Source of the DNA: Acidobacteriota bacterium
Lineage (GTDB): Bacteria > Acidobacteriota > Terriglobia > Terriglobales > Acidobacteriaceae
Direction: 5' to 3'
Assembly: GCA_021792135.1 (NCBI GenBank)
Contig: JAJYVF010000006.1
Location: forward strand, 1-64,000
DNA: 64,000 bases
The position numbers and the translations under genes were made by a program. Numbering within the stretch: position 1 is the first letter of the stretch; each line of letters opens with the position of its first letter. Below the pieces are notes generated by a model that was not told the origin of the DNA, searched no databases, and saw only the letters and a program-made list of their open reading frames with translations. This document shows, in pieces, positions 11,831 through 41,393 of this stretch.

Positions 11831-14379
11831 GCGGATACCTCGTGGCAGCCTGAACTTTCGGCGCTGCTGACGCATGTCTCGCAGACCAGACCGTGCGCTG
11901 GCGCCATGAGATCGCGCTCCAGAAACCGCTTCCTGTACCAGTCCATGACCTGGTAGCTGCGCATGTACATGTCCAGCCGGCCAGCCCAGGCGATCAGGCT
12001 GCCCAGCATTTCCAGGCGGTGCTCCATCTCGGTGGCGGGCGCCTTTCTGTACCAGGCGTCGACCAGATCTCCACGGCAGCGAACCTGAAACCCGTAGTGC
12101 GCGAGGCAGCCTTCCAGAAAGCGTGCCCGCAGATCGCGTCGTTCCCGGGAGGCACCCCCGCCCACGAACCGAAACGAAATGGAGTTGTTGCGCGGCGTAT
12201 CCGTGACGCAGGCATCCATCAAGGCAAAGTGGTACGCCAGACGCGCATTCAGATTCATGTACTCGGCGGCCACGATCAGATAACCCGTCTGTCCGAGAGC
12301 GCGGGCTGTGTCGGTATTCAGCGAAGCTGCCATCACCGAAGCCAGATCGCTGAGCGCGATGGGCAGATCGCATCGGCACCCCGCTCCCGGGCCCGTCATT
12401 CCGCGCCACAGCGCCCGGAAGGGTCGCGACACAATTTCCTCGGGCCGCACCTGGCGGCTGGCAGAGTCGGCAAGGGCCAGTCCGCCGCCGAGGTCGAGCA
12501 CGCAGAGCTCGACCGGAGCCGAGGTCACAAGTCTTCTGGCCGTTTCCCCATCGCGGCTGAGCCGGCCGTCGCTCAGCGCGAACATCGTCTGAATCGCTTT
12601 TTCATGGCAGTAGCGAAGAACATCGTGCGCCGAGCGGCACGCCCCCGCCCGGAAACCAATGCCGGAAGAATCGAGCAGATGAAGGCGCAGCAGCCGGCCG
12701 TCGATGGGAGTCTCTTCGCCGTCTTTGCCCGCGCGCGCCGCGGGAGCCTCGGCACGGAATTCGGGCCAGAACGCGCCTGCATACACCCGCGGCCGGACAG
12801 CATCCAGACTGACGGGATTTCCCTGGCGAATCGCCTCGAAGGCGCCCGCCATTTGAAAGACCGATGGAATCCTGAACTCGCGCAGCAATGCGGCAGCGTG
12901 GCCCGTCAGGTTGCCCCACTCCGCCACAAGGCCGGAGATCCGGGGTAGCACCTCCGCAATTTCCGGAGATGCCTTGTGCAAAAACAGGATGGCTCCGGGA
13001 GGCGTACTGCTCAGCGAAACCATATCGGATGCCAGATGCGCTGCTCCCGACACGCGCCCCGGGTAGACGCCGGATCCGCCCGACAGAATCGGCTGGCTGC
13101 AAATCTGAGCCGGCAGGTGCTGGGTTGCTGGGGTGGCCAGTACCAGCTGCCGCGTCTGGACGATCCACAGCTTCTCGTCCTCGTCCAGAACCCACTCGAT
13201 ATCCTGCGGGCATCCGAAGTGACGCTCGATGAGGCCCGCCCACGCTGCAAGTTGCCCTAACTGATCCCCGGTCAGGTTCCGTGCGCTGACGGCGCCGCAG
13301 CACGGAACCCCGGCGTCTCTGTGCAGAGCGACCTGCTCGACCGAGGGCACGATGTGCCTCTCGATTACGGCATGCGGCTCGCTGCGCGAGACGACCAGGA
13401 GCTCCGCTGTCGCGCCGCCGCTGCTCTTCTCCGGCTGCAGGCCGCTCGTCGCTGTGATCCAGAGCGCGTCGCTCTTCGGGAGCCCAGGATCGCGTGTGTA
13501 CATGATCCCGGAGGCGCGGGCGCGCAGCATCGGCATAAACAACACCGCCAGCGGGCTCTCGACGTCCGGTATTCCGGCTGAGAGGCGGTACGACAGGGCT
13601 GTGGCGCTGAACCGGCTGGCAATCACTTCCCGCCAGGCTTCAACCGCGCGTTCAGGAGCGACATGCAGCGTCGTGCGGAACTGGCCTGCGAAGGTTCGTC
13701 TGCCGCCTTCGCCGACAGCACTGGACCGCACCGCGAGTCCGCGGCCGCATGGCGCCAGACGCAGCGCGCGCTCCGCAATGGCGTCCTCGATGACTCTCGG
13801 AATCGGAGATTTCTGTACGGCTTCGACCAGCAGCGCAGAAGCTTCTTCGAGCCTGCGGAGATCGTCCAGGTCAATCCGGCGCGTCAGATCGCGCACCTGT
13901 CTCCAGAGAAATGCTCCGAAGTGCCGGCGATATGCCTCGGCGGTCAGCACATATCCATCCGGAACCGGCAGTGCCAGTTCATTCCGGATTTCTCCCAGCC
14001 TCGCTGCCTTGCCGCCCACCAGGGGCTCAGAACTGCGATCGACCTCTGCCAGTTCCAGGACGAGCGGCGGCCGTGGCTGTTCGCTTTGCCTCGCAACCCA
14101 GGCCTCCACGGCTTTTCGCTGTGCGCCGACGGCAGCCATGACCCGGCGGTAGCTGCGCCCCGTGAGCCTTTCCAGAGCGCTCACGACATCGACGAGCTTG
14201 TCGAAAACCATCGACGCCCGCTCGCCGGGCACCTCGCGTCCCGCCGGAACATGACACAGATCCTCCTGAATGCCCGCGAGGATTTCGAGGCAGTCGTTGT
14301 TGAGCGACAGCAGATTCCGGAACTCCGCGTAGAGCGAGCGCATCGGGTTGTCGCTGATGGGCAGCTTCCATTCGTTCAT
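11827..14379 (-). CDS. PEP synthase/PPDK-like ATP-grasp phosphotransferase of unknown substrate
   Basis: 850 aa from ATG 14379, preceded by GAGAGG. An N-terminal helical region (about 1-105) is followed by the PEP/pyruvate-binding ATP-grasp domain (about 115-410: LVGGKAARLGEIR, GLAVRSSAVGEGG, FAGQFRTTLH, GIMYTRDP, and QDIEWVLDEDEKLWIVQTRQL split between 405 and 430). A mobile phosphohistidine domain follows with GNLTGHAAALLREFRIPSV, whose His is the expected phospho-carrier. The last about 330 residues do not resemble the PEP-binding TIM barrel of PpsA/PpdK, so this is more like the rifampin-phosphotransferase layout with a new acceptor domain. It lies between a kinase-like/BON gene and a TSUP permease. 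Confidence 0.75.
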   Translation of the reverse strand: MNEWKLPISDNPMRSLYAEFRNLLSLNNDCLEILAGIQEDLCHVPAGREVPGERASMVFDKLVDVVSALERLTGRSYRRVMAAVGAQRKAVEAWVARQSEQPRPPLVLELAEVDRSSEPLVGGKAARLGEIRNELALPVPDGYVLTAEAYRRHFGAFLWRQVRDLTRRIDLDDLRRLEEASALLVEAVQKSPIPRVIEDAIAERALRLAPCGRGLAVRSSAVGEGGRRTFAGQFRTTLHVAPERAVEAWREVIASRFSATALSYRLSAGIPDVESPLAVLFMPMLRARASGIMYTRDPGLPKSDALWITATSGLQPEKSSGGATAELLVVSRSEPHAVIERHIVPSVEQVALHRDAGVPCCGAVSARNLTGDQLGQLAAWAGLIERHFGCPQDIEWVLDEDEKLWIVQTRQLVLATPATQHLPAQICSQPILSGGSGVYPGRVSGAAHLASDMVSLSSTPPGAILFLHKASPEIAEVLPRISGLVAEWGNLTGHAAALLREFRIPSVFQMAGAFEAIRQGNPVSLDAVRPRVYAGAFWPEFRAEAPAARAGKDGEETPIDGRLLRLHLLDSSGIGFRAGACRSAHDVLRYCHEKAIQTMFALSDGRLSRDGETARRLVTSAPVELCVLDLGGGLALADSASRQVRPEEIVSRPFRALWRGMTGPGAGCRCDLPIALSDLASVMAASLNTDTARALGQTGYLIVAAEYMNLNARLAYHFALMDACVTDTPRNNSISFRFVGGGASRERRDLRARFLEGCLAHYGFQVRCRGDLVDAWYRKAPATEMEHRLEMLGSLIAWAGRLDMYMRSYQVMDWYRKRFLERDLMAPAHGLVCETCVSSAESSGCHEVSA

Positions 14380-14412
14380 TGCCGGGCGCCTCTCGGGCTG
14401 CACCCGGACCGG

Positions 14413-26922: not shown

Positions 26923-27186
26923 CTACCCGGCCTGCTCGCTGCCCTCTTTGGGAGGAAGCTGGATATAGGAGCCGCCGAGATAGCTGTAGATGCAGCGGCC
27001 GGAATCGATCAGAAGCCGGATCGCCTTCTTGCAGTCGTCCCGAGTGCATGTCTGTTCGCCGTGTTTGGCGATCATAGCCTTGGTGAGGTCGCCGGCTTTC
27101 AGATTCTTCTTCCCGGCGCACTCGGAGACCAGTTGGTACATCTCTTCAGCGATGGTTTCAATGGAGACGGTAGTAGCTTCGCTCAT
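26923..27186 (-). CDS. dsrD: DsrD, winged-helix activator of dissimilatory sulfite reductase
   Basis: 87 aa from ATG 27186, overlapping the cobA stop by 4 nt. The family core is clear: KKNLKAGDLTKAMIAKHGE, KKAIRLLIDSGRCIYSYLGG, SYIQLPPK. DsrD is a small winged-helix protein reported to stimulate DsrAB sulfite reduction, and it is usually taken as a marker of reductive (sulfate or sulfite reducing) metabolism. Its presence here argues for reduction. Confidence 0.95.
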   Translation of the reverse strand: MSEATTVSIETIAEEMYQLVSECAGKKNLKAGDLTKAMIAKHGEQTCTRDDCKKAIRLLIDSGRCIYSYLGGSYIQLPPKEGSEQAG

Positions 27187-28054: not shown

Positions 28055-29239
28055 TCAGTGACTCACCGCCAGCGCCTCTTCCCCAACCTCCCTGCGAACG
28101 GAGAGCATGATCTTGTAGAACATGGTGATCAGCAGCGCTCCCAAGGCCCAGATTCCCGCCACGATGCTCCACTCCGGCAATGTGGGCGTGTACCGCACGA
28201 CGGAGCCCAGCGGAGAGGGGACAAATCCTCCCACGATCATGCCGAGTCCCTTGTCCAGCCAGAGCGAGAAGAACACGAGGACACACGCCACCAGCAGCAG
28301 CACCGGGCTCGTCCGCCATGCAGGAACCAGAAGCAGGGTGAGCGCTCCGAGAGCAAACAGAATCGAAAGCCACATCCAGGGCACGAGGTGATAATTTCCG
28401 TCGAGTCCCAGGAAAAGATACTCGAGATGCTCCGTGTCCGCCGGGATACGGGAATAGAGAACCGTGAATGCCTCGACCAGGATGAAAAACACGTTGATGG
28501 TCATGGCGTAAGTCATGATGACCGCGAGCTTCCGGATGGCCTGCTCTCCCGCGTCGAAGCCCGCCAGCCTGCGCAGCGCCAGACAGAAGAGAATCAGCAG
28601 TGCGGGTCCCGAGGCGAAGGCGGAAGCCAGAAAGCGGGGCGCAAGGATCGCGGTGAGCCAGAAAGACCGGCCAGGAAGACCGCTGTAGAGGAACGCCGTG
28701 ACCGTGTGAATGCTTACCGCCCACGGGATCGACAGCAGAATCACCGGCCTGATCCATCCCGGCGCGGGGATTTCCTCGCGCTCGGCGGTCAGCATCACCA
28801 GGCTGATGACAATGTTGAGGAGAAGGTATCCGCCCAGAGAGATCATGTCCCAGAACATCAGGGACCATGGCGTGGGATAGAGAACGATATTGAAGACCCG
28901 TGCCGGCTGGCCAAGATCCACAAAGATGAAAAGAATGCACATGATCACGGCGGCAATGGCCAGAAACTCGCCGAGAATGGTGATCCGGCCGAACTGCTTG
29001 TAGTCGTGCAGGTAGTACGGCAGCACGACCATCACTGCCGAAGCCGCGACCCCCACGAAGAAGGTGAACTGCGCGATGTAAAGGCCCCAGCTTACGTCGC
29101 GGCCCATGCCGGTGACTCCCAAACCGACGTTCAGCTGGTGCATGTAGGAGAAGAAGCCGACCGCGATGACGCCCAGCAGACAGAACACCCACGTCCAGTA
29201 CCGGCGGCCTCCTGTAATCGCTCTTTCGAACATGAACAT
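28055..29239 (-). CDS. dsrP: DsrP, NrfD-like membrane quinol-interacting subunit
   Basis: 394 aa; ATG 29239 is the first start after the dsrO stop. An NrfD/PsrC-type integral membrane protein with about ten helices (for example WVFCLLGVIAVGFFSYMHQL, FFVGVAASAVMVVLPYYL, FLYSGLPGRSFWLTA). In DsrMKJOP it exchanges electrons between the menaquinone pool and the periplasmic DsrO/DsrJ. Gene order dsrM-K-J-O-P is exactly that of sulfate reducers. Confidence 0.95.
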   Translation of the reverse strand: MFMFERAITGGRRYWTWVFCLLGVIAVGFFSYMHQLNVGLGVTGMGRDVSWGLYIAQFTFFVGVAASAVMVVLPYYLHDYKQFGRITILGEFLAIAAVIMCILFIFVDLGQPARVFNIVLYPTPWSLMFWDMISLGGYLLLNIVISLVMLTAEREEIPAPGWIRPVILLSIPWAVSIHTVTAFLYSGLPGRSFWLTAILAPRFLASAFASGPALLILFCLALRRLAGFDAGEQAIRKLAVIMTYAMTINVFFILVEAFTVLYSRIPADTEHLEYLFLGLDGNYHLVPWMWLSILFALGALTLLLVPAWRTSPVLLLVACVLVFFSLWLDKGLGMIVGGFVPSPLGSVVRYTPTLPEWSIVAGIWALGALLITMFYKIMLSVRREVGEEALAVSH

Positions 29240-29243
29240 GGCA

Positions 29244-30011
29244 TCACACCAGGTAGTAGACCGAGGGGCCGGTTCCGAGTTCGGGTTCACGCTGTATGGC
29301 GAAGCGCGTGCGCAGCAGCTGCCGGGGTTCGGAATCCGGGTCGGCCAGATTGCCGAAGACCAGGGCCTTTTCCGGACAGGCTTCGACGCATGCCGGGCTG
29401 ATCCCCGTGGCCAGGCGTTCCTCGCAGAAATTGCATTTCTCCACCACGCCCTTGCTTCGCGTGGGGAAATCGGGGTTGATGCTGGCGATCGCCGGCCGCG
29501 GGTCCAGCCAGTTGAAGCTGCGCGAGCCGTACGGGCAGGCAGCCATACAGTAACGGCAGCCGATGCAGCGGTGCCAGTCCATCATCACGATCCCGTCGTC
29601 CCTCTTCCACGTCGCCTGCGTGGGGCACACGTGCACGCACGGTGGGTCGGCGCAGTGATTGCACATCAGCGGAACAGGAAGATGGACGTCGCTCCGTTCT
29701 GCATATCCCGATTGAGAGAACGGAAAGACGGTTCCGAAGGGCTCGGTCCAGATCCATTTCACTTCATGCCTCGGATCGGAGAAGTGCGGTATGTTGTGCG
29801 CCGTATTGCAGGCGCCTATACAGGCGTCGCAGCCCTCCTCTTTCCGGCATTTCTCGAGGTTGACGACCATTCCCCAGCGCACCGGTGCCGCTGCCTGGCG
29901 GCCCTCGGCAGAGGAACCGCGTCCGGCGATCGCGCGCGCCGCTCCCGCGGCGCCGGCCGCCAGAAACGACAACCCGCTGAGCCGCAGGAAATCCTTTCGC
30001 GTGATTTTCAT
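29244..30011 (-). CDS. dsrO: DsrO, periplasmic ferredoxin-like subunit
   Basis: 255 aa; ATG 30011 overlaps the dsrJ stop by 4 nt. N-terminal signal resembling a Tat type (MKITRKDFLRLSGLSFLAAG) followed by several [4Fe-4S] motifs: CRKEEGCDACIGACN, CNHCADPPCVHVCP, CIGCRYCMAACPYG, CNFCEERLATG. DsrO links DsrJ and DsrP on the periplasmic side. The twin-arginine pair is not canonical (KITRKDFLR), which is usual for DsrO. Confidence 0.94.
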   Translation of the reverse strand: MKITRKDFLRLSGLSFLAAGAAGAARAIAGRGSSAEGRQAAAPVRWGMVVNLEKCRKEEGCDACIGACNTAHNIPHFSDPRHEVKWIWTEPFGTVFPFSQSGYAERSDVHLPVPLMCNHCADPPCVHVCPTQATWKRDDGIVMMDWHRCIGCRYCMAACPYGSRSFNWLDPRPAIASINPDFPTRSKGVVEKCNFCEERLATGISPACVEACPEKALVFGNLADPDSEPRQLLRTRFAIQREPELGTGPSVYYLV

Positions 30012-30517
30012 GGCCTGCTCCCGTGGAACGGCGAGAGTTGCTCGTTTCCAGGCTGATTCAGAAAGCGGGCTGCCGAGCCCGCCGCCTGCTGGACGGCGCT
30101 GAGTTCCGGCTCTGCCTGCCAGGACGCTCCGGCCACACGGGTCGCGGGCTGGTTGTGGCAGTTCCAGCAATAGGGACCGGAGACGCCGGCATAGGCGTGG
30201 CAGCGATCGCAGAACTGCTCCTTGTTGTGACAACCGAGACAGGTTCCCGTCAGACTCCGCTGGTAGACCGTGCCGCCGGGTGCGACGTATCTTCGTTCAT
30301 CCAGACGCACCACGTCCCTGCGCCAGCGCAGCAGCAGCTGCATATGCGACTGCCGCATATACTCGACCGGGGCCACGCACTCCCTGGCGCGGACGGGAAG
30401 CTGCAGGTTGGGAACGCCGGCAATCCCGGCGGTTCGTCCGTGTGCCGACCAGAATGGAAGGGTCGCCACGCCGACAAACAACGCCAGGCCTGCGAAGATC
30501 CAGATCCGGTCACGCAT
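30008..30517 (-). CDS. dsrJ: DsrJ, periplasmic tri-haem cytochrome c
   Basis: 169 aa; ATG 30517 overlaps the dsrK stop by 8 nt. An N-terminal anchor/signal helix (IWIFAGLALFVGVATLPFW) is followed by three CxxCH sites: CLGCH, CDRCH and CWNCH. The family phrase ARECVAPVEYMRQSHMQLLL holds the conserved Cys known to ligate one unusual haem in DsrJ. It is part of the transmembrane DsrMKJOP complex. Confidence 0.94.
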   Translation of the reverse strand: MRDRIWIFAGLALFVGVATLPFWSAHGRTAGIAGVPNLQLPVRARECVAPVEYMRQSHMQLLLRWRRDVVRLDERRYVAPGGTVYQRSLTGTCLGCHNKEQFCDRCHAYAGVSGPYCWNCHNQPATRVAGASWQAEPELSAVQQAAGSAARFLNQPGNEQLSPFHGSRP

Positions 30518-32117
30518 GCAGGGCCTCGCTTTCCCTCGCCGGAGCGAACGGTTCACCACGCAGGTCGGCGGTGCGCTCTTTCTCGCCGGTCATCACCAGC
30601 GCATTGCCCAGCAGCTCGTGCACGCCGGCAACCTCCACGCCCGGTACCCAGTATTCGAGCAGCGTGGGCAGGGTGGCCTTGTCGATGGCGCAGATGCAGG
30701 TCAGCAGGTTGACCCCGTATTTCTCCTTCACATACTTCACGGCATTGGCGCGCGGAAAGCCGCCCCGCAGCCGCATCTCGAGATTCTCGTCCGTGCCCAG
30801 CCCGGCGCCGCTGCCGCAGCAAAAGGTCTGCTCGCGGATGGTGTTTTCCGGCATCTCGTGAAAATGGCGGGAAACGCTGTTGAGAATGTAGCGCGGCTCC
30901 TCCAGCAACCCCATCCCGCGCGCAGGGTTGCAGGAGTCGTGGTAGGTGACATTCCAGTGATCGTTGCGCGAGGGGTCGAGGCGAAGCCGGCCGTGATGAA
31001 TCAGATCGGCCGTGAACTCGCAGATATGCACCATTTTGGTGGAGCGGGTATTCTCGAAGACGGTTCCCGTCATCGGCGAGACGGGAACTTCGAGGAAATC
31101 GGCGGGCCCGTTCATGGTATCCATGTACTGATGGAGAACGCGCCACATATGGCCGCACTCGCCGCCCAGAATCCACTTCACACCCAGCCGGCGGGCCTCT
31201 TCATAGATCTTCGCGTTCAGGCGCTTCATCATCTCGTGCGACGAGAAAAGTCCGAAATTCCCACCCTCCGAGGCATAGGCACTGACGGTGTAATCGAGGC
31301 CGATTTCATGAAACAGCATCAGATAGCCCAGCAGGGTGTAGTAGTGAGGGCTGGCGAAATAGTCCGCCGAGGGCATGACAAAAAGCACCTCCGCGCCTTT
31401 GCGCTGGATCGGCACCTCGATTTTGAGCCCCGTAATCTCCGAAGCCTCCTCCGCCGCAAAATCAATGCTGTCCTTGAAGCCGTGCGGCTGGATGCCCAGG
31501 TGATTCCCCATCCGGAAACAGTTGGCAGCCGGTTCCAGGATCCAGTTCGTGTTGCAGCCGATCAGATTCAGCAGCTCCCGGCCCATCATCGTGATCTCGG
31601 CCGTATCGATGCCGTAGGGACAAAACACCGAGCAGCGCCGGCACTCCGTGCATTGATAGAAGTAGTAGAACCACTCCTTCACCACGTCTTCGGTCAGCTC
31701 GCGCGCTCCGGCCAGCGCACCGAAGAGCCGGCCCGTGAGCGTGAAGTAGCGGCGGTACACGGACCGCATCAGCTCCGCGCGCATGACCGGCATGTTCTTC
31801 GGATCGGCTGAGCCCAGATAGAAGTGGCACTTATCGGCGCACGCGCCGCACCGTACGCAGATCTCCATGAACAGGCGAAACGAGCGGTACTTTTTCAGCC
31901 TGTCCTTCATCCCCTCGAGGAGGATCCGCTTCCAGTCGGGAGGGAGCTTCCAGTCGGCATCGAGAGGCTGCCAGACGCGGGGATTGGGCAGCCCGAGGTA
32001 CTCCAGGTTCTTCGGCGCCGCGCTGTAGCAGATACTGCCTTTGCGGAACTCGACATGAGGGTCGGTCCAGTCGCCGCGCGGAGGCTTCGATTCAATCTGT
32101 ACGAGCGTTCCCGGCAT
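30510..32117 (-). CDS. dsrK: DsrK, HdrD-like iron-sulfur subunit
   Basis: 535 aa. Two [4Fe-4S] motifs (CVRCGACADKCHFY and CTECRRCSVFCPYG), then the CCG-domain cysteines around YHDSCNPARGMG and FCCGSGAGLG with CICAIDK downstream, matching the HdrD-type catalytic cluster. DsrK faces the cytoplasm and is the proposed reductase of the DsrC trisulfide. The start overlaps dsrM by 26 nt. Confidence 0.96.
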   Translation of the reverse strand: MPGTLVQIESKPPRGDWTDPHVEFRKGSICYSAAPKNLEYLGLPNPRVWQPLDADWKLPPDWKRILLEGMKDRLKKYRSFRLFMEICVRCGACADKCHFYLGSADPKNMPVMRAELMRSVYRRYFTLTGRLFGALAGARELTEDVVKEWFYYFYQCTECRRCSVFCPYGIDTAEITMMGRELLNLIGCNTNWILEPAANCFRMGNHLGIQPHGFKDSIDFAAEEASEITGLKIEVPIQRKGAEVLFVMPSADYFASPHYYTLLGYLMLFHEIGLDYTVSAYASEGGNFGLFSSHEMMKRLNAKIYEEARRLGVKWILGGECGHMWRVLHQYMDTMNGPADFLEVPVSPMTGTVFENTRSTKMVHICEFTADLIHHGRLRLDPSRNDHWNVTYHDSCNPARGMGLLEEPRYILNSVSRHFHEMPENTIREQTFCCGSGAGLGTDENLEMRLRGGFPRANAVKYVKEKYGVNLLTCICAIDKATLPTLLEYWVPGVEVAGVHELLGNALVMTGEKERTADLRGEPFAPARESEALHA

Positions 32118-33105
32118 GTTCGGCCTCGAGCGGGATTCCCGCTTCCTTCAGTTTTTCGCGGAACTCCTCTTCCCATTCCGCGTAGGGATGGGTCTTGACC
32201 GGATAGTTCCATGGGTTGACGTGCCGCCGGCTCCGGCTGTTGTTGGCAAGGTTGCGGGTCGGGCTGAGGAAGACGCCGCCGGCGTGCATCAGCTTGCTGA
32301 AGGGAAAGTAGGCCGCCAGCGTCGAGACCAGCAGAAGATGAACCAGAAAGACCGGGCTGAGTGCGGACGGAACCACGGGATGAAATGCCGCAATGCTCAG
32401 GGCAAGCTGCTTGACGCTCACAATGTCCGCGCGGAGGTAATAGCGCATCAGCATTCCGGTGCCCGCGATTCCCAGGAGCAGCAACAGAGCGAAGTAGTCG
32501 GTGAACAGAGAGATATAGCGGACCATGGGGTCGCGGAAGCGGCGGACGATCAGGTATCCCAGCGATGCGAGCAGTGCGATGTCGGACAGATAGATCGGGG
32601 GAGCGCCGAGCTGAAAGAAGCCGTCCAGCTGCTCCAGCCGGTTGACCAGGGCCGGTACCGGCTCCATGAACAGGCGCAGATGACGGAGCAGGATCATCAG
32701 CAGAGACCAGTGGAAGGCCAGGGATCCCAGCCAGAGGTACTTGTTTTCTCCCAGAACGAGACGCTCGCCGGCGAGACGCGCGCGGTTATTGCGAAAAAGC
32801 GAGCGGAAGAGCAGAACCTCGCCGGCCATCCGGACCACAACAGCCGGGACGGTAAAAGGATTGTCGATCCTTGAGCTGCGAATCCAGGGGAGAGATTTCT
32901 GCTGACCGCAGGTGACGGGAATGCGAAACGGAACCGGGGCCCGCGACCAGCGAACGACGCGCCAGCAGAACCCGCCCAGGAAAACGGCAAATGCCGCATA
33001 CGGAACAGCCAGCGCGAGGATGACCCGCCCGCCGGCTGCAGCCGCGCCTGCCAGACCGACAAGAACCAGGGCGGCGACCGCGAGCAGCGACCAGAACGCT
33101 CTCAT
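32092..33105 (-). CDS. dsrM: DsrM, haem b membrane subunit (NarI-like)
   Basis: 337 aa. Hydrophobic with about six helices; the NarI-like core includes KYLWLGSLAFHWSLLMILLR, YLSDIALLASLGYLIVRR and PVFLVHLLLVSTLAAYFPFS. His residues in these helices would ligate two haems b. DsrM oxidises menaquinol and delivers electrons to DsrK. Located 10 nt after the RsbRD-like gene, which separates it from dsrC. Confidence 0.95.
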   Translation of the reverse strand: MRAFWSLLAVAALVLVGLAGAAAAGGRVILALAVPYAAFAVFLGGFCWRVVRWSRAPVPFRIPVTCGQQKSLPWIRSSRIDNPFTVPAVVVRMAGEVLLFRSLFRNNRARLAGERLVLGENKYLWLGSLAFHWSLLMILLRHLRLFMEPVPALVNRLEQLDGFFQLGAPPIYLSDIALLASLGYLIVRRFRDPMVRYISLFTDYFALLLLLGIAGTGMLMRYYLRADIVSVKQLALSIAAFHPVVPSALSPVFLVHLLLVSTLAAYFPFSKLMHAGGVFLSPTRNLANNSRSRRHVNPWNYPVKTHPYAEWEEEFREKLKEAGIPLEAEHAGNARTD

Positions 33106-33115
33106 CGGGCCTCCT

Positions 33116-33586
33116 TCACCGGGTGGCGCACTCCGCGCGAAAACGGATTTCCCGGAGGCGCAGTTCGAAGATCTGCTCGCGGCATCGTGCGTACTGGCTG
33201 AAGGCCATCAGCGCGAGGGAATCGATGCGGGCGTGCATAGTTTCCGGAACGGTCCCGGCGCGTTCGCGAATGGCCGTGCGCAGGTCGAAGACGAAGCGCA
33301 CGGCATCGCCAGGGCTGAGATCCTGCACAGCGTGCAGGCGGACCAGCGCGTCGAGGGCCGGCGCGACCGACGCTTCCTGCATCCCGCCCAGAACTTCACG
33401 CGCCAGGATGTGCAGGTTCCTGCGGACCGTGGAGCCAATGGGATTGCGAAAGGGGTCCTTCTCTTCGCTGAGAAAGGGACGCGCTGCGCCGGGCCACGAG
33501 TTCATGCTGAGGGACACCCATCGCTCGGCAATGGCTTCTGTCAGCGAGCTGCCAGGTACCGGGGCGGCGATCGGTGCATCGGTCAT
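33116..33586 (-). CDS. RsbRD N-terminal domain-like protein of the dsr operon
   Basis: 156 aa, mostly helical with no signal peptide. The pattern ERWVSLSMNSWPG, DPFRNPIGSTVRRNL and REVLGGMQ resembles the RsbRD N-terminal (globin-fold-like sensor) domain, and such genes are often found just before dsrM in sulfate reducers. Here it sits 6 nt after dsrC and 10 nt before dsrM. No STAS domain or enzyme motif follows. A sensory or assembly role is inference. Confidence 0.7.
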   Translation of the reverse strand: MTDAPIAAPVPGSSLTEAIAERWVSLSMNSWPGAARPFLSEEKDPFRNPIGSTVRRNLHILAREVLGGMQEASVAPALDALVRLHAVQDLSPGDAVRFVFDLRTAIRERAGTVPETMHARIDSLALMAFSQYARCREQIFELRLREIRFRAECATR

Positions 33587-33592
33587 TGCGGT

Positions 33593-33910
33593 TTACACGC
33601 AGCCGGTCGGCTTGGGCAGACCCGCCAGCTTGCAGGCACCCTTGGCCGGCCCGGACGGAAAGAGCGAGTAGATGTCGCTCAGCTTATTACCCGTCTCCTT
33701 GCAGACCTTGCGCACCATCGGTGCGATTCCGTACTGGAGATAGTAGTTGCGGATGTAGCGGATCACCTTCCAGTGGGCTTCGGTCAGCTCGTTCACCGCT
33801 TCGGACTGGGCAAAATCCCGCGCCACGTCCTCGTTCCAGCGCTCTGGCTCCTGGAGAAATCCGTCTTCGTCGACATCGTATTTCCTTCCTTCCACCTCAA
33901 ACGTGGGCAT
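33593..33910 (-). CDS. dsrC: DsrC, sulfur-carrier substrate of DsrAB
   Basis: 105 aa. The C-terminal arm GACKLAGLPKPTGCV carries both redox cysteines (Cys93 and penultimate Cys104, 11 residues apart), so it is a true DsrC rather than a TusE or a single-Cys paralogue. It binds the sulfite-derived sulfur as a trisulfide, which DsrMKJOP then reduces. N-terminus VEGRKYDVDEDGFLQ is family-typical. Confidence 0.97.
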   Translation of the reverse strand: MPTFEVEGRKYDVDEDGFLQEPERWNEDVARDFAQSEAVNELTEAHWKVIRYIRNYYLQYGIAPMVRKVCKETGNKLSDIYSLFPSGPAKGACKLAGLPKPTGCV

Positions 33911-33924: not shown

Positions 33925-35112
33925 TCAGTTCATCTCGATATATCCGCACGGACACGACTCGGCACACTTCCCGCACCCGTTGCAGAGATCAAGCTTGATC
34001 TTGTAGTGCTCGCCTTTCGGCAGCTTCACAAAGCAGTTCTTGCTGCAGTACATCCAGCACGTTTCGCAGTCCATGCACATGCCGCACGACATGCAGCGCG
34101 CCGCCTCCTTCAGCACCTCCGCTTCCGCCATCGGGGCATCCCCGTCGACGCGGAGCGCGCCGGCGTACCAGTCCAGCTTCACGCGATCCGAGCGGATGAC
34201 AGCCGGCCGGCCGGCCGGTCTCACGGCCCGCTGTTCCAGGAATGCCGCGATCCGTTCCGCCACCGCCTGCCCCTGCGCGATCGCCGGGCTCACCATGTTC
34301 AGCACGCGCGGCTCCGATTCTTCCGGTTCGCGATCCGGAATTTGCGGTGGCTCCGAGGGCAGCATCCCGGCGAGAGCCCCTGCGTCGTCGCTGATCCGCA
34401 GTTCGAGCTGCGCGGCCTTCTGCAGCCCCATCGCGAAGAAGATCGCGCGGTAATCCTTCTGCAACTGCTCCACGGACACATCGCGGCCCACCACGCAGCC
34501 GGTGTGCAGCGCGACCCCCAGCTGGAGGATGTTCCCGATCTCCCCCTCCAGGACCTCCGCCGGAATCACCCTGCGCGGGATGCGGTAGCGCATCATGCCC
34601 CCGGGCAGCGGCGCGGCTTCGATCACCGTGACGGCGCAGCCGGCGCGCGCCAGATGATACGCGGCTGCCAGCCCGGCCGGACCGGCGCCCACTACCGCCA
34701 CCTTTGCCACACCGGGCTCGGGCGGATGCGGCAGCCTGGCCCGCAGTCCCTGAGCAATGGCAAAATCTCCGATGAAGCGCTCCAGACGGTTCACCGCCAC
34801 TGCCCCGTCTTTGGCCTTGCGGTTGCAGTTCAGCTCGCAGGGATGCTGGCACACGCGTCCGCAGACAGCGGGGAACGGATTGTGCTCCAGGATGGTGCGC
34901 CACGCCGTTTCAAAAGCCTGCGCAGACGTTCGCCCCCACGCCTCGTGCTGGGCCAGCGCTACCAGCCATCCGCGGACGTCGGTGCCGCTCGGGCAGCTGT
35001 GAATGCACGGTGCGGTCTTTGCCACATAGGCAGGCCGCCCTGCGCTTACTTCCGCTCCGCCAGAAGCTGTCGGCCTGAGAACCGGCTTTTTGACTTCCTT
35101 AAATAACGCCAT
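33925..35112 (-). CDS. DsrL-like iron-sulfur flavoprotein lacking the second nucleotide-binding fold
   Basis: 395 aa. N-terminal GltD-type [4Fe-4S] cysteines (CIHSCPSGTD 36-45; CGRVCQHPCELNC 84-96), an FAD Rossmann motif (VAVVGAGPAGLAAAYHLA, 138-155) and a C-terminal double ferredoxin (CMSCGMCMDCETCWMYC from 340; CNGCGKCAESCP 377-388). The stretch 240-275, where DsrL/GltD/NfnB proteins carry an NAD(P)H-binding Rossmann fold of about 150 residues, is only a short Pro/Glu-rich linker. The chain then resumes with the family C-terminal SPAIAQGQAVAERIAAFL. It lies between dsrB and dsrC, where acidobacterial and Chlorobi-type DsrL genes can occur. Probably transfers electrons to DsrAB from a donor other than NAD(P)H. 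Confidence 0.75.
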   Translation of the reverse strand: MALFKEVKKPVLRPTASGGAEVSAGRPAYVAKTAPCIHSCPSGTDVRGWLVALAQHEAWGRTSAQAFETAWRTILEHNPFPAVCGRVCQHPCELNCNRKAKDGAVAVNRLERFIGDFAIAQGLRARLPHPPEPGVAKVAVVGAGPAGLAAAYHLARAGCAVTVIEAAPLPGGMMRYRIPRRVIPAEVLEGEIGNILQLGVALHTGCVVGRDVSVEQLQKDYRAIFFAMGLQKAAQLELRISDDAGALAGMLPSEPPQIPDREPEESEPRVLNMVSPAIAQGQAVAERIAAFLEQRAVRPAGRPAVIRSDRVKLDWYAGALRVDGDAPMAEAEVLKEAARCMSCGMCMDCETCWMYCSKNCFVKLPKGEHYKIKLDLCNGCGKCAESCPCGYIEMN

Positions 35113-35132: not shown

Positions 35133-36218
35133 TCAGTACCGCACGTGGGCCGATCGCGCATACGACAATCCCGCGTGCTTGAAATCGTCAATGTGGTAGC
35201 GGGTGAATTCGAACCCCGTCAGCTGGAAGAAACGCGGCCATCCGATCCGGTCGATCCACTCGCCCATTCGCTCGTAGCGGCGCGCCTCTCCACGGTACAC
35301 ATCCACGATCTTCGTTACCGCCTCCACAACTTCGGGCCAGCGCGGAGGATGGTTCGGCAGCCAGGGAATGACCAGCTTCGAGAAGCTGGGCTTGCTGCGC
35401 GCGTTGCTCACCTTGCCGCCCACCCAGATTGAAAGCCCGTCGTGCTCGGCATCGCTCAGCGGCATGGCCGGACACACGCTGAAGCAGTTGCCGCAGTACA
35501 TGCACTGCTCCTCGATCACCTCCACCGAAGGTTTGCCCTCCACCGTGGCCGCGCGAATCGCGCCGGTCGGGCAGGACGCGATCAGCGTCGGAACTTCGCA
35601 CACTTTGGGCAGCACCTCATGCTGAATCTGCGGCGGCCGGCGATGCACACCGAGGATGGCGATGTCGGAACAGTGCACCGCGCCGCACATATTAAGGCAA
35701 CAGGCCACGGCAATCCGCAGCTTGGCGGGCAGGTCCTCGTGCGTGAAGTGGTCGTTCAGCGCATCCATCACGCTCTTGACCAGTCCCGAGGCGTCGGTCG
35801 CCGCGGAGTGGCAGTGCACCCATCCCTGCGTGTGAACGATGTTGCTGATGGCATTGTTCGTGCCCCCGACAGGGATGCCCAGCGCTGCCAGTTCCTTCTT
35901 CAGCGGCTCGATCCTGGCAGGATCCTCCAGCAGGAATTCCACGTTGTTCCGGCTGGTGAAGCGCAGAGAGCCCCCGCAGTACCGATCGGCCAGGTCGGCA
36001 TAGCGGCGCAGCGTCTGGATGCTCAGCAGCCGCGGCGATCCGGCGCGGACGGTATAAAGCCGCTCGCCCGACTCGGCGATGTGACACAGGACACCCGGCG
36101 CCAGCGTCTCATGGTGCCTCCACTGCCCGTAGTTCCTCAGCACGATCGGCGGCAGGTACTTCTGATAACTCGGTGGACCAATGTCGGTCAGGCGCGACTG
36201 GACGGTAGCGGTGCTCAT
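35133..36218 (-). CDS. dsrB: Dissimilatory sulfite reductase subunit beta
   Basis: 361 aa, ATG overlapping the dsrA stop by 4 nt. The siroheme/cluster cysteines lie in [15 protein letters not shown] and CPTGAIR, and the inserted ferredoxin domain in [16 protein letters not shown]. DsrB holds the catalytic sirohaem that reduces sulfite; the product is passed to DsrC. Family phrases such as [12 protein letters not shown] and [20 protein letters not shown] (20 residues) are intact. Confidence 0.97.
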
Positions 36219-37429
36219 TGATCTCCCTCCTTCTCCGTCTGGAAGTAGATGTAGGGGTTGTCTCGCGGCGCCGCCACCATCTCCGGCACCGGATCGAGAC
36301 CGATGCCGTCGAGGAAGGCCGGCAGTCCCACCCGCTGGATCAGCTCTCCGATGCGCTCGCGGTTCGTTCCGTACTCGTCCCAGAAATCCCAGATGCGCTG
36401 CACCAGTTCCTTCAGCGTGTCCAGCAGCTCATCGGCGGGAACAAAGGGGATCAGCACCGAGGAGAGCAGAGCTCCCTGCACGATCGGCGCTTTCGCGCCG
36501 ATCAGGATGACAGCGCCCTTCTCCTTGCCCGGGCGCAGTGCCTTCGGCATCGCATTGATGCAGTGCATGCAGCGCACGCAGTCGCGGTTCTCGATGTGCA
36601 GCGCTCTGCCGTCCCAGTCCATGCATTTGCCGGGGCAGTTGCCGCAGACATCGCGCTGAATATTCAGCCCCGCAGCCGCATACTTCCCCACTTCCTCCTG
36701 GTCGATCTGAATATCGTCCTTCCAGGTCCCGATCACCGCCAGATCGGACCGCGCAATGGAAGCAACGCAGTCGTTGGGGCAACCGGAGCACTTGAACTTG
36801 AACTTGTAGGGAAACGCCGGACGGTGCAGCTCGTCCTGGTAGGTCATGGTGAGGTCATAGCAAAGCTTCATGGTGTCGAAGCACGCCCATTCGCAGCGGG
36901 CCATGCCCACGCAGCAGGAGGGCGTCCGCACCGCCGATCCGGAACCACCCAGATCAAATCCGGCGTGCGTCAGCTCCTGAAAGGTCGGCTCCAGCTGATC
37001 CGTCGTAGTTCCGAGCAGAATCATGTCGCCGGTCGATCCATGCATATTCGTCAGGCCGGATCCATGCCGCTCCCAGATATCGCACACTTTGCGAAGAGCT
37101 TCACTCGAATAGAACCACGCCGCCGGCTGGTTAACCCGCAAAGTGTGAAAGTGAGCAACCTTGGGAAACTGATCGCCAACGTCGCTGTATCTTCCTATAA
37201 CTCCCCCGCCATAACCAAGTACGCCCACGAGGCCCCCATGTTTCCAATGGCTCTTCTTCTCCTCGTAGGAAACCTCAAGCTGCCCCAGCAGATCGCGGGC
37301 GCTGTCATTCGCCTCAGCCGCGGATTTTATCTCCGTGACAAAGCTTGGCCATGGTCCTTCTTCCAGTTCGTCCAGAAGTTTTGTGGCTGGTTTTTCATTC
37401 GATCCCGAATTCCCGTTGTTATCCGCCAC
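36215..37429 (-). CDS. dsrA: Dissimilatory sulfite reductase subunit alpha
   Basis: 404 aa from GTG 37429, chosen because AAGGAG sits about 9 nt upstream and no ATG is better placed. Siroheme/[4Fe-4S] ligands are in [13 protein letters not shown] and [16 protein letters not shown]. The ferredoxin domain is in [13 protein letters not shown] and [15 protein letters not shown]. Forms the alpha2beta2 core with DsrB. First gene of a thirteen-gene operon with a CRP/FNR-type promoter about 100 nt upstream. Confidence 0.97.
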
Positions 37430-37500
37430 GGAGGGTCTCCTTTCATCGGAGTCGCGGATTGTGAAGGCTGACTCGGCAGTCGCCTGGATCGCGACTCCCA

Positions 37501-37544
37501 AGGGTACAGGTCGCAGAGATACTCATGCTGTGACTCCCGTCACA
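37501..37544 (-). promoter_or_regulatory. CRP/FNR-type operator with class II promoter for dsrA
   Basis: The palindrome TGTGACTCCCGTCACA is at 37529-37544. On the minus strand it is followed after exactly 22 nt by TACCCT (37501-37506), a TAnnnT -10-like hexamer, giving a transcript start about 65 nt before dsrA. On the plus strand no good hexamer lies at that distance, though TATAGA at 37558-37563 could serve dsrV. Confidence 0.72.
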
Positions 37545-37681
37545 GAGCTATCCGACTTATAGAGATTCCATGTAACCTTCGATACATAGCCTTTGTGCGG
37601 GCAGCCATGGCGAGCCGCATGTTCACCGTTAATCCGCAAACAATTGCCTGCTGCGTTAGGATCAACTCCGGAGTGACCACG

Positions 37682-38365
37682 GTGAATGAAGATCATCTCT
37701 GCTTTCCGATGATGGTGAAGATCAACGGACGCACCTGTGTGGTGGTCGGCGCGGGAAAGATAGCCCTGGGAAAGATACGCGGGCTCCTCGAGTGCGGAGC
37801 CCGCGTGGTGGTGATCAGCCCCCGCGCAGTGCGGCCCATCCAGGAACTGGCGCGCGCCGAATTGCTGCTCTGGCGCCGAACCGGCTTCTCCGCCGGCCAT
37901 CTGACCGGCGCTTTTCTGGCGATCGCTGCAACGAACTCCCCGGCAGCCAACCGCGCCGTCTATCGCGCCAGTGCGGCGCGCGGCATTCTCTGCAACAGCG
38001 TTGACGATCCTCCTCATTGCGACTTCTTCTATCCGGCCGTCGCGCGCCGCGGGTCTCTGCAGATCGCAGTCTCTACCGGCGGGCGCAGCCCTGCGCTGGC
38101 GGCACGGCTGCGACGTGACCTGGAGCTCCAGTTCGGCGAGGAATGGGCGGAATGGGTAGAGCACCTGGGCAGCGCTCGCCGCCAGCTGCTGGCCGCGAAG
38201 ATCCCGGAGAAAGAGCGCAGACGCCGCCTGATGCAGCAGGTTACGAATCGGGCTTTCCAGGCATTTCTGCGCAGGTCCGGGAGAACAGGGCGTACCGCCG
38301 GCGCACCGGCTGCCGGTGCTTCGAAGAAGACAAAGTCGCGGCTCAGTGCCACTCCCACTCGATGA
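37682..38365 (+). CDS. dsrV: DsrV, precorrin-2 dehydrogenase (siroheme synthase N-terminal type)
   Basis: 227 aa from GTG 37682, with GGAG 8 nt before it. The NAD-binding fold matches CysG-N/Met8p/SirC: FPMMVKINGRTCVVVGAGKIA, ECGARVVVISPRA, AFLAIAATNSPAANRAVY, GILCNSVDDPPHCDFFYPA. It oxidises precorrin-2 to sirohydrochlorin. With cobA (27968) this gives most of the siroheme branch. It is divergent from dsrA across a 252-nt promoter region, and its 3' end overlaps the convergent DsrK-like gene by 23 nt. Confidence 0.9.
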   Translation: MNEDHLCFPMMVKINGRTCVVVGAGKIALGKIRGLLECGARVVVISPRAVRPIQELARAELLLWRRTGFSAGHLTGAFLAIAATNSPAANRAVYRASAARGILCNSVDDPPHCDFFYPAVARRGSLQIAVSTGGRSPALAARLRRDLELQFGEEWAEWVEHLGSARRQLLAAKIPEKERRRRLMQQVTNRAFQAFLRRSGRTGRTAGAPAAGASKKTKSRLSATPTR

Positions 38366-39950
38366 ATCCCGGCTTCACATCGGTAGCCGCGTTGACGATC
38401 AGCTCGACCAGTCCGCCATACAGGATTCGGTTCTTTTCCCACAGGTCGTAGTAGGCAAGCATGTCGCGGAACTGGCCCTTGCAGTTGCTGCACGGGGCGC
38501 AGAGATATTTCGGTGTCGCCGGGTCGAGGCAGTCGGAGAACGCGGTAAGAACCTGATCCAGCTTCCTGCGTCCCGCCACATGGAAGCGCCAGTCCGAGAA
38601 GTTATTCCCGCTCATGATGGCGAAGCCACTGCCGCCGCCGCAGCAGTAGTTGTCGACGCCGTGCGGTTCCATCTCTCTGAACTGCGGGCAAAGAGCGCGC
38701 ACAATCTCCCGCTGTGGTTCCACCACACCCATCAGACGCACCAGGTTGCAGGGGTCGTGCAGAGTGACCGGGAAGTCGTTGCGCGTGGGGTCGAAGCGGA
38801 TCTTGCCGCCCAGCACGATGTCGCGGAGCAGTGGAAGGGAGCTCTCGCGCGGAACATTAAATTCGCCGGTCAGCATGCGGTCTGCGACGACGCACAGAGC
38901 CTTGTGCGCATGCCCGCATTCGCCCAGAACGACCCGCTTGACTCCCAGCTTGCGGGCTGCCTCCACATGCTTCAGCGCCACCCTCGCGAACTGTGCATCG
39001 TCGTACCACAGGCCGTAGTTAATCGAATCGTAGCCCGCCAGCTCCGAGGACATCGTCCAGCTCACGCCCGCCAGAGTCAGAATCAGCGCGAATGCTCCCG
39101 GATTTTCCGGCCACGCCATAATCTCGCCGGCGTTGTGGATGAGCAGAACATCGGCGCCATGTACATCCCACGGGGTATGGACCTCGATGCCCGTGCGCTC
39201 GCTGATGTCCTCATCGATGAACGCGACGTTGTCCTTCACGACCTCTGCGTTCATCCCTGTGGAAGAGCCGGCCTTCAGCTGCAGCATCGATCCCTGATCG
39301 TGCAGTTCGCGGGCCGCGATGCCCATCTCCTGGCTGAAGAGCTTGCGCAGTTCGTGGGCAACCAGGCCGTTGTCGCACCCGATGGGGCAGGCCTGGGCGC
39401 AGCGCCGGCAGAGGTTGCAGCGGTAGGAGAGCTCGATCAGCCGCGCCACCAGCGGCCAGTTCAGCCGGATATCCCCATGCTGCCAGGCGCTGAACAGCCC
39501 GCCGTGTTTCACGAACTTAAAGTACAGGCGGCGAAGAACTTCCGACCGGAACGTCGGCCGGTAGAGTTCGTTCCGCCCGCTGGCTTCGAAGATGTGGCAG
39601 GCATCGGCGCAGGTCTGGCATCCGGTGCAGTGCTCCATGGTCAGCAGCAGCGGCTGCAGGAAAGTCCAGTTGTTGGCCGCGCTGAACAGCTTCTCCAGTC
39701 CGGTGAGGAACTGCGCGACCAGCCTCTCCTCCTCTTGCGGCGACTTCGGCTGCGGGATGTTCACAGCGCAGGTGTCGTCGAGCCCGCATTCGTAGCGGTT
39801 GCGGCATTCCTCGCTGAGCGCAGGCGAGACCGGATCGTCCTTCTTGTCGGTCAGGGGCTCCGGCAGGGGCATGAGATCGGCGTTGCTGAGATGAATGAGC
39901 GGCTCGCGATCCGTGCGCGAGAAATCGTTCAGACTGACTCCCGGCCTCAT
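38343..39950 (-). CDS. DsrK/TmcB-like iron-sulfur protein (second DsrMK pair)
   Basis: 535 aa. HdrD-like layout: CTGCQTCADACHIF and CNLCRRCAQACPIG bind two [4Fe-4S] clusters, and the CCG-type cysteines are in HDPCNLVRLMGV, NYCCGGGSGF and CAPCSNCKGQ. It diverges clearly from the DsrK at 30510, with an acidic N-terminal extension containing CGLDDTC. It is paired with a membrane cytochrome b gene by a 4-nt overlap. TmcA and TmcD genes are not present here, so I call it a DsrK paralogue rather than TmcB. Confidence 0.85.
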   Translation of the reverse strand: MRPGVSLNDFSRTDREPLIHLSNADLMPLPEPLTDKKDDPVSPALSEECRNRYECGLDDTCAVNIPQPKSPQEEERLVAQFLTGLEKLFSAANNWTFLQPLLLTMEHCTGCQTCADACHIFEASGRNELYRPTFRSEVLRRLYFKFVKHGGLFSAWQHGDIRLNWPLVARLIELSYRCNLCRRCAQACPIGCDNGLVAHELRKLFSQEMGIAARELHDQGSMLQLKAGSSTGMNAEVVKDNVAFIDEDISERTGIEVHTPWDVHGADVLLIHNAGEIMAWPENPGAFALILTLAGVSWTMSSELAGYDSINYGLWYDDAQFARVALKHVEAARKLGVKRVVLGECGHAHKALCVVADRMLTGEFNVPRESSLPLLRDIVLGGKIRFDPTRNDFPVTLHDPCNLVRLMGVVEPQREIVRALCPQFREMEPHGVDNYCCGGGSGFAIMSGNNFSDWRFHVAGRRKLDQVLTAFSDCLDPATPKYLCAPCSNCKGQFRDMLAYYDLWEKNRILYGGLVELIVNAATDVKPGFIEWEWH

Positions 39951-40882
39951 TTCCGAACCTCCTGCGGGGGATCACCGGCGGCGATTTCCACCCAGCTCCT
40001 CTGCCCGTCGGCCCCCACATGCTTCGCTGCCCACGTGGGCCTGTATTGCAGGTTCTCCGCCATACGCCTCTCCAGCGCGCCGCCGCGCTCCATGCGCCGG
40101 TCGTCCCACCGCACTTCGTGCCAGGTGAAATACTTCGCGATGAAGTGCGACATATGCGTGAACGGAATATAGGCGGCCAGGGCGGAGGCGCAGACTACGC
40201 CGGCTCCAAGCAGCGGATGGATCGGGAGTGAGAGATCGAGGCGCAGCGCGCCGCGGACGATCTCCGCAGTGGCGGCGGCGTGGCCCGACACCAGCGTTCC
40301 CGCGATCAGAAGCCCAAACGTCGCCACGAAGAACAGAAGGTTGAAGATATCTGCCCCCTTCGTGTAGTTCCTCAGCCCGGGCTCGCGGACGCGGCTGATC
40401 AGGAGGAGGATAGCCCCGTCCACGATGACAACCGCCCCCGTGATTCCGATCCACGCGGCGGCCGTTGCGAGCCCCGCCGACACCGGAATAAGAGCAGCAT
40501 GCGCCGGCACAACGCCGGCAATCGCTGCCAGCGCGGCGGCCGCGATCGACAGATACAGGCCAGAGTGCAGGCAGAAGGAACTCACCCACAGGCGCCGGTT
40601 GGATTCCCACACGCTCCGGAGGAAGACAATCTCCTCCAACATTGCCGCCCACTCCCGAACGTGATGGTGCTCCTGGGGCTTGCGCCACGACTCCGCGGAT
40701 TCGAAATACGAGCCGCCATGTGCGGCATATTGCGGAGCTTCGTGCGGGACCGGATACAGTTCCCATCGCAGGTGGAAAGGAACCCGGGAATATTCGCGGA
40801 TACGAAGGAAGCAACCGATCAGAAAAACCAGCAGACCCGAGTAAATCGCCAGGTAAACCGCAATGGCCAACTCTGCCTCCAT
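39947..40882 (-). CDS. DsrM/TmcC-like haem b membrane protein (second DsrMK pair)
   Basis: 311 aa from ATG 40882. Helices near the N-terminus (AIAVYLAIYSGLLVFLIGCF) and four to five more (LWVSSFCLHSGLYLSIAAAA, FNLLFFVATFGLLIAGTLVS, VVCASALAAYIPFTHMSHFI) give a NarI-like fold with His ligands in HSGLY and THMSHF. Presumably a quinol-oxidising partner of the DsrK-like protein downstream. The pair has its own CRP/FNR-type promoter. Confidence 0.82.
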   Translation of the reverse strand: MEAELAIAVYLAIYSGLLVFLIGCFLRIREYSRVPFHLRWELYPVPHEAPQYAAHGGSYFESAESWRKPQEHHHVREWAAMLEEIVFLRSVWESNRRLWVSSFCLHSGLYLSIAAAALAAIAGVVPAHAALIPVSAGLATAAAWIGITGAVVIVDGAILLLISRVREPGLRNYTKGADIFNLLFFVATFGLLIAGTLVSGHAAATAEIVRGALRLDLSLPIHPLLGAGVVCASALAAYIPFTHMSHFIAKYFTWHEVRWDDRRMERGGALERRMAENLQYRPTWAAKHVGADGQRSWVEIAAGDPPQEVRK

Positions 40883-41393
40883 GCGACCGTTCGCGAGGAC
40901 AGTTGTAGCGCCAGGCGCCTCCCGCACACTGCTGTGCCGTCGGGACAGGGGACGCCGGCTTCAGGCCGAAACCCCTCTGACCATGGTCGCTGGATCTCTC
41001 CCGTGATCAGGGGACCGCCGGCAGTCGTGAAACTGTTCAGGATAGCCGTCCGCGGGGTGACTTCGAAGTGATCGCGGTCACAGTCGTCGGGCTCCACCGC
41101 GGAAGAGAACCTCTTGCGGGCTGTGCCGTCGTCCCCAGGATTCAGGCAGCAGAGTACCGATCAGCGACCATCATTCCGCGAACAACTCCGCGGGGCTGCC
41201 GGGATCGCGAAGTTCGTTGCCTTGCCGACTCTCTCATGTCGTGAAAACCCGTTGCATTCGTCGGCTTCGCAGCGGCACTGGCAGAGGTACAATTCCTCCG
41301 CTGCGGCGCCCTGCAGAGGAAATTCCGAACCGGCGCCAGCTGCTTCAGCGGAAACGGCCTGGCAGCTCCGGCAAACCGGGGTAAGGATCTGCC
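40883..41393. other. Divergent intergenic region
   Basis: 511 bp between the minus-strand DsrMK-like pair and the plus-strand cNMP-binding gene. Apart from the CRP/FNR-type site at 41067-41082 and its -10 at 41039-41044 I see no gene or strong hairpin. A GGTAAGGA ribosome-binding site lies at the right end for the plus-strand gene. Confidence 0.5.
41039..41082 (-). promoter_or_regulatory. CRP/FNR-type operator with class II promoter for the second DsrMK pair
   Basis: AGTGATCGCGGTCACA at 41067-41082 differs from TGTGA-N6-TCACA at one base. On the minus strand it is followed after exactly 22 nt by TATCCT (41039-41044), a good -10. The transcript would start about 150 nt before the DsrM-like gene. 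Confidence 0.68.

Follow-up and report, generated by a model that had tools for sequence, protein, structure and literature searches.

DsrL is the protein that probably feeds electrons to the sulfite reductase DsrAB. In its passages on the definition of the family, Loffler 2020 (PMC7596348) required all domains for inclusion as a DsrL, a rule that would exclude shortened forms. Hausmann 2018 (PMC6018796) reported dsrL in all seven peat MAGs, with sequences shorter than that of A. vinosum, and its passages on DsrL state that the acidobacterial proteins have the same functional domains; the genes of SbA5 are given there as serving sulfite reduction only. The SbA5 DsrL (L049) is 396 aa long and the NADP(H) domain is absent from it, so any model that has NADPH feeding DsrAB in such genomes is probably wrong. 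Within the main-text literature searched, we found no report of a DsrL that lacks the NAD(P)H domain, and the loss goes unmentioned in the main-text portions consulted of Diao 2023 (PMC10591310), Flieder 2021 (PMC8528874), Dyksma and Pester 2023 (PMC10564751), PMC11406059, and PMC10504309. The protein described here is a conserved DsrL variant without this defining domain, and it is new to the literature searched.

A DsrL gene without its NADP(H) domain

The window, the whole stretch of acidobacterial DNA analyzed (64,000 nucleotides), contains an open frame at 33925-35112 on the minus strand that encodes 395 aa with no internal stops. The gene starts 20 bp past dsrB and ends 14 bp ahead of dsrC, in the following setting:

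26923-27183, minus strand: dsrD-like gene, conserved in acidobacterial dsr loci, named by position and after Hausmann 2018
28055-29290, minus strand: dsrP (NF045798, over cut-off)
29244-30233, minus strand: dsrO (NF045797, over cut-off)
30510-32117, minus strand: dsrK (NF045796, over cut-off)
32092-33105, minus strand: dsrM (NF038037, over cut-off)
33593-33910, minus strand: dsrC with two C-terminal Cys (PF04358, TIGR03342)
33925-35112, minus strand: short dsrL, whole gene, 395 aa; open frame and member of the short-DsrL clade
35133-36218, minus strand: dsrB (TIGR02066, 501.8 bits, over cut-off)
36215-37501, minus strand: dsrA (TIGR02064, 591.3 bits, over cut-off)
38343-39950, minus strand: dsrK2-like gene (DsrK model, 316.4 bits, below the cut-off of 400), named after Hausmann 2018
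39947-40927, minus strand: dsrM2-like gene (weak Pfam Nitrate_red_gam match below cut-off, no NCBIfam match), named after Hausmann 2018

Searches of Pfam, NCBIfam, and PDB sequences did not match the DsrD-like protein of the window to DsrD, and 18 relatives of it, though well conserved, likewise match neither the Pfam DsrD model nor a PDB sequence; it may be a diverged DsrD or something else. The window also carries a cobB/dsrN-type gene, sat, aprB, aprA, and two HdrA2-like frames with a further frame, and we take these last three to be qmoA, qmoB, and qmoC. Three other neighbors are recorded as observations in their own right. An RsbRD_N-domain protein without an NCBIfam name (33116-33586, minus strand) lies between dsrC and dsrM and is kept in most of the dsr loci compared. 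Between dsrA and dsrK2, facing the other way on the plus strand (37595-38365), lies a CysG-like gene of the siroheme-synthase N-terminal type, which is kept in many short-dsrL and some long-dsrL loci. Near sat, a frame at 11827-14403 on the minus strand encodes an 858-aa PEP-synthase-like protein that falls below family cut-offs.

The 395 residues of the short DsrL divide as follows:

34717-35025, minus strand: N-terminal Fe-S domain, residues 30-132 (Cys36, 40, 88, 92, 96; Glu111); Fer4_20, Cys in 14/14 short proteins
34393-34716, minus strand: FAD Rossmann half, residues 133-240 (GAGPAG, acidic ribose residue, GGMMR); from Pfam, the alignment, and the AlphaFold2 model
34303-34365, minus strand: 21-residue Pro/Glu-rich connector, residues 250-270, in place of the NADP(H) domain and AGGD strand; from the alignment
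34234-34302, minus strand: terminal FAD helix region, residues 271-293 (AIAQG; Asn272); from the alignment, with a helix at 274-292 in the model
34138-34233, minus strand: linker to the C-terminal domain, residues 294-325; from the alignment
33928-34137, minus strand: C-terminal two-cluster ferredoxin domain, residues 326-395; Cys in 14/14, short-long identity 0.74

Pfam places Fer4_20 at 31-121, the start of an FAD Rossmann fold at ∼136-197, and a C-terminal Fer4 at ∼345-394, and no second nucleotide-binding stretch was found among the best 25 of 29 families. The best match to NCBIfam PRK12771 (566 positions) joins residues 21-246 to model positions 35-249. Cys36, 40, 88, 92, and 96 and twelve C-terminal Cys positions are present in all 14 short proteins compared, Cys84 is present in 13 of them, and Glu111 is invariant over 36 aligned rows; by analogy with Loffler 2020, the Cys and Glu residues of the N-terminal domain may act as cluster ligands. 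Ser23 and Arg26 are present, as in DsrL-2. GxGPxG and GGMM occur in all 18 distinct short proteins and the acidic ribose residue in 14/14. The linker to the C-terminal domain spans ∼32 residues with the borders set here, versus ∼100 aa in the DsrL criteria of Loffler 2020, and, connector aside, is the least conserved part between short and long proteins.

Four features of full-length acidobacterial DsrL are absent from 14/14 distinct short proteins: the NADP glycine motif (GGGDTAIDAA), YRR, AISQ, and the AGGD strand. Four short proteins added later lack the same motifs (4/4, AISQ left out of the scoring). With L091 as reference, 166 residues are swapped for 21, and Glu254 and Asn272 of the connector region are fixed in 14/14. 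The missing stretch takes in the whole NADP(H) Rossmann domain. An AlphaFold2 model built from 36 aligned rows (mean pLDDT 82.3, pTM 0.82) predicts the Fe-S domain, an FAD domain that is cut short, and no second Rossmann fold, whereas the model of L091, the full-length control (mean pLDDT 81.0), does have one; the C-terminal Fe-S part is of low confidence in both models. The short model overlays NfnB chain 5jfc_L with Z 24.2 and rmsd 2.1 over 233 residues (model 32-294 against chain 48-472), an alignment that appears to skip the NADPH domain, and the L091 control aligns 395 residues to the same chain (Z 33.7, rmsd 1.7).

A preliminary description of this DNA had called the product a DsrL-like flavoprotein, perhaps a DsrL variant, with intact N- and C-terminal iron-sulfur regions, an intact FAD fold, and a Pro/Glu-rich linker at about 240-275 where a second Rossmann fold would lie. 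It is supported by the apparent descent from DsrL-2, by the absent NAD(P)H domain, and by an operon with DsrA, DsrB, DsrC, and the DsrD-like gene; the iron-sulfur regions are conserved in sequence (Cys 14/14, Cys84 13/14), and the linker is narrowed to the connector at 250-270. Structure prediction, which it had named as a check, agrees: the second nucleotide-binding fold is absent from the AlphaFold2 model. Its view of the FAD fold is correct for GxGPxG, the acidic ribose residue, GGMMR, and the last helix and too generous for the AGGD strand, which is lost. We take this strand to be normally the second FAD contact, and because it is lost, binding of FAD by the short DsrL is uncertain.

Among the DsrL criteria of Loffler 2020, the window gene is complete and its organism has dsrAB; the embedded NAD(P) Rossmann domain is missing from 18/18 short proteins, as is the YRR of DsrL-2. 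Because the protein falls outside the published domain definition, we call the protein a DsrL-2 descendant and not DsrL proper.

Distribution, selection, and exchange of the short form

A scan with one genome per species found 45 loci, of which 11 are short, 30 are full-length, and 1 is unrelated, the remaining 3 being incomplete at contig ends. The matches at the 11 short loci are 1188-1206 bp long and span residues 1-395. Three further samples, which overlap one another and the species scan, were searched at E 1e-50; the class sample matched in 19/399 genomes (7 short, 11 long, 1 cut), the phylum sample in 35/396 (5 short, 29 with long frames, 1 fragment), and the family sample in 26/398 (17 short, 9 long). 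Two genomes of the phylum sample (G534, G654) each hold two long DsrL-like genes. A protein set drawn from 58 loci contained 14 distinct short and 34 distinct long proteins, to which the later samples added 4 and 11; L048, L087, L090, and L093 (cut by contig ends) and L092 (not a DsrL) were left out, and L043, cut at its 3′ end, was kept. The distinct short proteins thus number 18 and are 395-402 aa long. Their carriers are some soil and peat bacteria with sulfate or sulfite reduction genes.

The DsrL tree, based on 394 columns common to both forms, sets the 14 short proteins apart on one side of a branch with support 100/100, and their nearest long neighbors are joined weakly (78/83). In the alignment and in this tree, the short form appears as a descendant among the acidobacterial DsrLs, in a tree that omits DsrL-1, 2A, and 2B references. 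Whole-gene dN/dS (Nei-Gojobori) is 0.08-0.23 in 7 pairs, the values of 3 pairs being rough because dS is >1; residues 241-268 are looser (0.11-0.38), and the ratio is low in both Fe-S domains. The tested pairs are under purifying selection.

These data bear on whether the gap is an artifact or a sign of decay. The named short-form records are MAGs, but an assembly deletion is ruled out because 17 other distinct proteins, from separate assemblies, have the same gap, and a pseudogene is ruled out by the lack of internal stops, by purifying selection, and by a gap common to 18 distinct proteins, with Glu254 and Asn272 fixed in 14/14; we give an assembly deletion or a decaying gene a negligible chance. 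The same data speak to the idea that the short DsrL binds DsrAB and DsrC as a scaffold or activator and is no longer a redox enzyme of its own. Its gene position between dsrB and dsrC and the lost AGGD motif for FAD would suit such a role, but the Cys ligand positions are kept in 14/14 proteins in both Fe-S domains, where dN/dS is low, and we consider such a role quite unlikely.

Each of the 7 short-form genomes of the class sample gives one match at E 1e-50, and a search with full-length DsrL found a second DsrL in 0/7, the only paralogues being 36-46% identical to the full-length protein. A split enzyme, with the NADP(H) domain provided in trans by a second protein and NADPH still the donor, could draw on the paralogues of G228 and G429, which span most of DsrL within larger frames of 974 and 1161 aa. 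Against it, none of the paralogues lies at the dsr locus, and the two of G000 match only DsrL residues 24-285 and 34-285. Nor did a neighbor-gene search of frames of ≥90 aa outside the matches to 20 window genes (flanks ≤10 kb, several records short) find a gene specific to short loci or carrying the missing domain, no family occurring in at least 3 of the 11 named short loci. We judge a split enzyme unlikely.

A DsrA plus DsrB tree covers 33 of 46 loci, 9 of them short-form; the other 13, among them the window locus L001, lacked a complete dsrA or dsrB in the DNA used. Short-form hosts are not united in it: L053 is sister to the long-DsrL host L084 (99/99), L059 falls outside a 13-row group containing the remaining short rows, and the starred branches require a minimum of 3 changes. 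AU tests reject a single clade of short hosts on DsrAB (p 8.6e-6) and a pairing of L053 with L084 on DsrL (p 3.2e-5; p 0.003 on the 201 N- and C-terminal columns alone); the groups were defined with the trees already in view, which flatters these p-values. On these 201 columns, without FAD part and connector, support for the short clade is only 73/49. The L053 operon (7300-11300, on one contig with a stated coverage of 2.3) reads dsrA-dsrB-dsrD-like-short dsrL-dsrC, and L084 has the same order with a long dsrL. Convergent truncation in L053 was considered and set aside, its connector resembling the other short ones and DsrL rejecting L053 with L084 even when FAD and connector columns are left out (p 0.003). 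The simplest reading of L053 would be a single-gene exchange inside a resident dsr operon, and, as judged from the trees, a short dsrL has taken the place of a long one in one or more foreign dsr operons. The operons that carry the short allele are not closest relatives of one another, and the allele seems to have moved between species.

Four of the 34 long proteins (L078, L079, L080, and L082, the last from MAG SbA1) have lost YRR and have an altered NADP glycine motif, yet keep the domain, which is 0.45 identical to that of other long proteins versus 0.70 among the others. Their long dsrL genes lie at ∼10000-11650 of the loci, and all four have Ser for a C-terminal Cys. Since L122 shares this Cys-to-Ser change and keeps YRR, the loss of YRR seems younger than the Cys-to-Ser group. 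In its text on DsrL-2, Loffler 2020 names the Acidulodesulfobacterales as sole YRR exceptions. By their motifs, the four proteins represent a second, different kind of NADP(H)-site loss. It is possible, and we raise it with reserve, that a lineage of Acidobacteriota with reductive dsr genes has uncoupled DsrAB from pyridine nucleotides: a mobile short dsrL that enters foreign dsr operons would make the sulfite reductase run on ferredoxin or another one-electron donor, there would be a dedicated non-NADPH route to DsrAB, and neighboring lineages would have lost NADP(H) binding in two different ways.

Electron supply to DsrAB

The bacteria with the short form probably draw on an electron source other than NADPH for the sulfite reductase step. 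Our favored reading, held tentatively and at a little under an even chance, is that the short DsrL is a DsrL descendant that serves DsrAB and no longer takes electrons from NADPH itself, the likeliest and most economical candidate donor being ferredoxin. Within this reading the loss of directly bound NADPH is firm and the identity of the donor is a guess. A protein donor, most likely reduced ferredoxin, would dock on the N-terminal Fe-S/FAD face exposed by the deletion; electrons would cross the N-terminal clusters, with FAD probably still bound, and then pass through the conserved C-terminal two-cluster domain to DsrAB, at which end the protein would work like DsrL. Complex-I-type enzymes that lack the NADH module and use another donor offer an analogy. 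In the 11-subunit complex I-like enzymes, the donor may be ferredoxin.

The identity of the C-terminal ferredoxin domain is 0.74 between short and long proteins versus 0.79 among long ones, and that of the FAD part is 0.51 versus 0.74; a ferredoxin domain that is kept and an FAD part that has changed fit an output end retained and an input end altered. The proposed Fe-S relay is weakened by the A. vinosum system, in which, according to Loffler 2020 (PMC7596348), NADH-to-sulfite transfer by rDsrABL is reported to be independent of the DsrL clusters.

Several candidate correlates of the short form were tried and set aside. PFOR, a source of ferredoxin, was found at E 1e-100 in 6/7 short and 11/12 long genomes (6/7 and 9/12 at the curated cut-off) and in one short-DsrL genome, G019, not at all, so PFOR or ferredoxin supply is not discriminating. 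The short dsrL is also unlinked to pyruvate/ketoisovalerate ferredoxin oxidoreductase genes, its neighbors being dsr genes. The mean charge of the N-terminal Fe-S domain in the first set was +2.8 for short proteins, -0.9 for long ones, and +4.2 for the group without YRR; as a sign of ferredoxin docking this was not upheld in a held-out set (n = 15, 4 short and 11 long, p 0.055), in which two long YRR-bearing proteins of the same family are also at +3. The charge follows family membership at least as well as it follows the short form. DsrM2K2 is likewise no specific partner, dsrK2 being present in 7/7 short genomes but also in 9/12 long ones.

The dsrK2 counts matter for a second proposal, that electrons come from the quinol pool via DsrMK or DsrM2K2, or from DsrC thiols, rather than from soluble ferredoxin. 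Besides the presence of dsrK2 in every short genome, dsrM2K2 flanks the dsr cluster in 8/11 named short loci (L050, L054, and L057 being short records), and dsrC is the next gene after the short dsrL. Given that dsrK2 is also present in long genomes, and near some long dsrL genes, we regard a quinol or DsrC donor as unlikely. Ferredoxin, DsrC, and a quinol-linked donor had all been suggested in the preliminary description, and DsrK2, PFOR, neighbors, and charge did not discriminate. A specialization for sulfite reduction, also suggested there, would fit the operon. The preliminary description had further asked whether homologues in other dsrD-containing clusters share the gap, and the answer is divided: the gap is common to the relatives of the window protein, but full-length acidobacterial DsrLs occur in similar operons with a DsrD-like gene too, so that the gap does not track this marker.

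The direction of flow might also be reversed, with the short DsrL taking electrons off DsrAB and delivering them to a different acceptor. The first known DsrLs came from sulfur oxidizers, and Hausmann 2018 (PMC6018796) discusses reversal in these bacteria; the DsrD-like gene and the DsrL-2 type are, however, read as reductive markers in the corresponding part of Diao 2023 (PMC10591310), and we hold an oxidative role to be very unlikely. With regard to activity, Dyksma and Pester 2023 (PMC10564751) describe, in the sections on transcription, little to no dsrAB transcription for MAG BA147 in one bioreactor and dsrAB transcription under anoxia for CO124. The dsrL of BA147 is short (L052) and that of CO124 is long (L076); with BA147 dsrAB nearly silent, activity of the short form in that reactor is disfavored.

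With the nucleotide domain removed and the cluster domains kept, the short DsrL is a ready-made protein with which to ask about the role of the clusters and the identity of the donor.

Comparison with known systems

The short DsrL shares with DsrL-2/DsrL-2C (PMC7596348, PMC10591310) its apparent descent, its place in the operon, the N-terminal Fe-S domain, the start of the FAD Rossmann fold, the C-terminal ferredoxin domain, and Ser23/Arg26, and differs from them in lacking the NADP(H) domain, YRR, and AGGD and in a linker of ∼32 residues. With the fold of NfnB, GltD, and dihydropyrimidine dehydrogenase it has the Fe-S and FAD part in common, as seen in the overlay on 5jfc_L, whereas those enzymes have a further Rossmann domain for NAD(P)H, which is absent from the short DsrL. 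The top Z scores for the short model come from the large subunits of NfnABC/StnABC, namely 9bov_A (Z 31.6, rmsd 5.9, 309 aligned) and 8oh5_C (Z 30.3, rmsd 2.2, 278 aligned); these proteins are larger, at ∼950-1180 residues, and are titled electron bifurcating, and the full-length control aligns 463 residues of 9bov_A. The 11-subunit complex I-like enzymes, in the part of PMC11238625 that describes them, are likewise redox enzymes without the NADH-oxidizing module, although the protein itself is unrelated.
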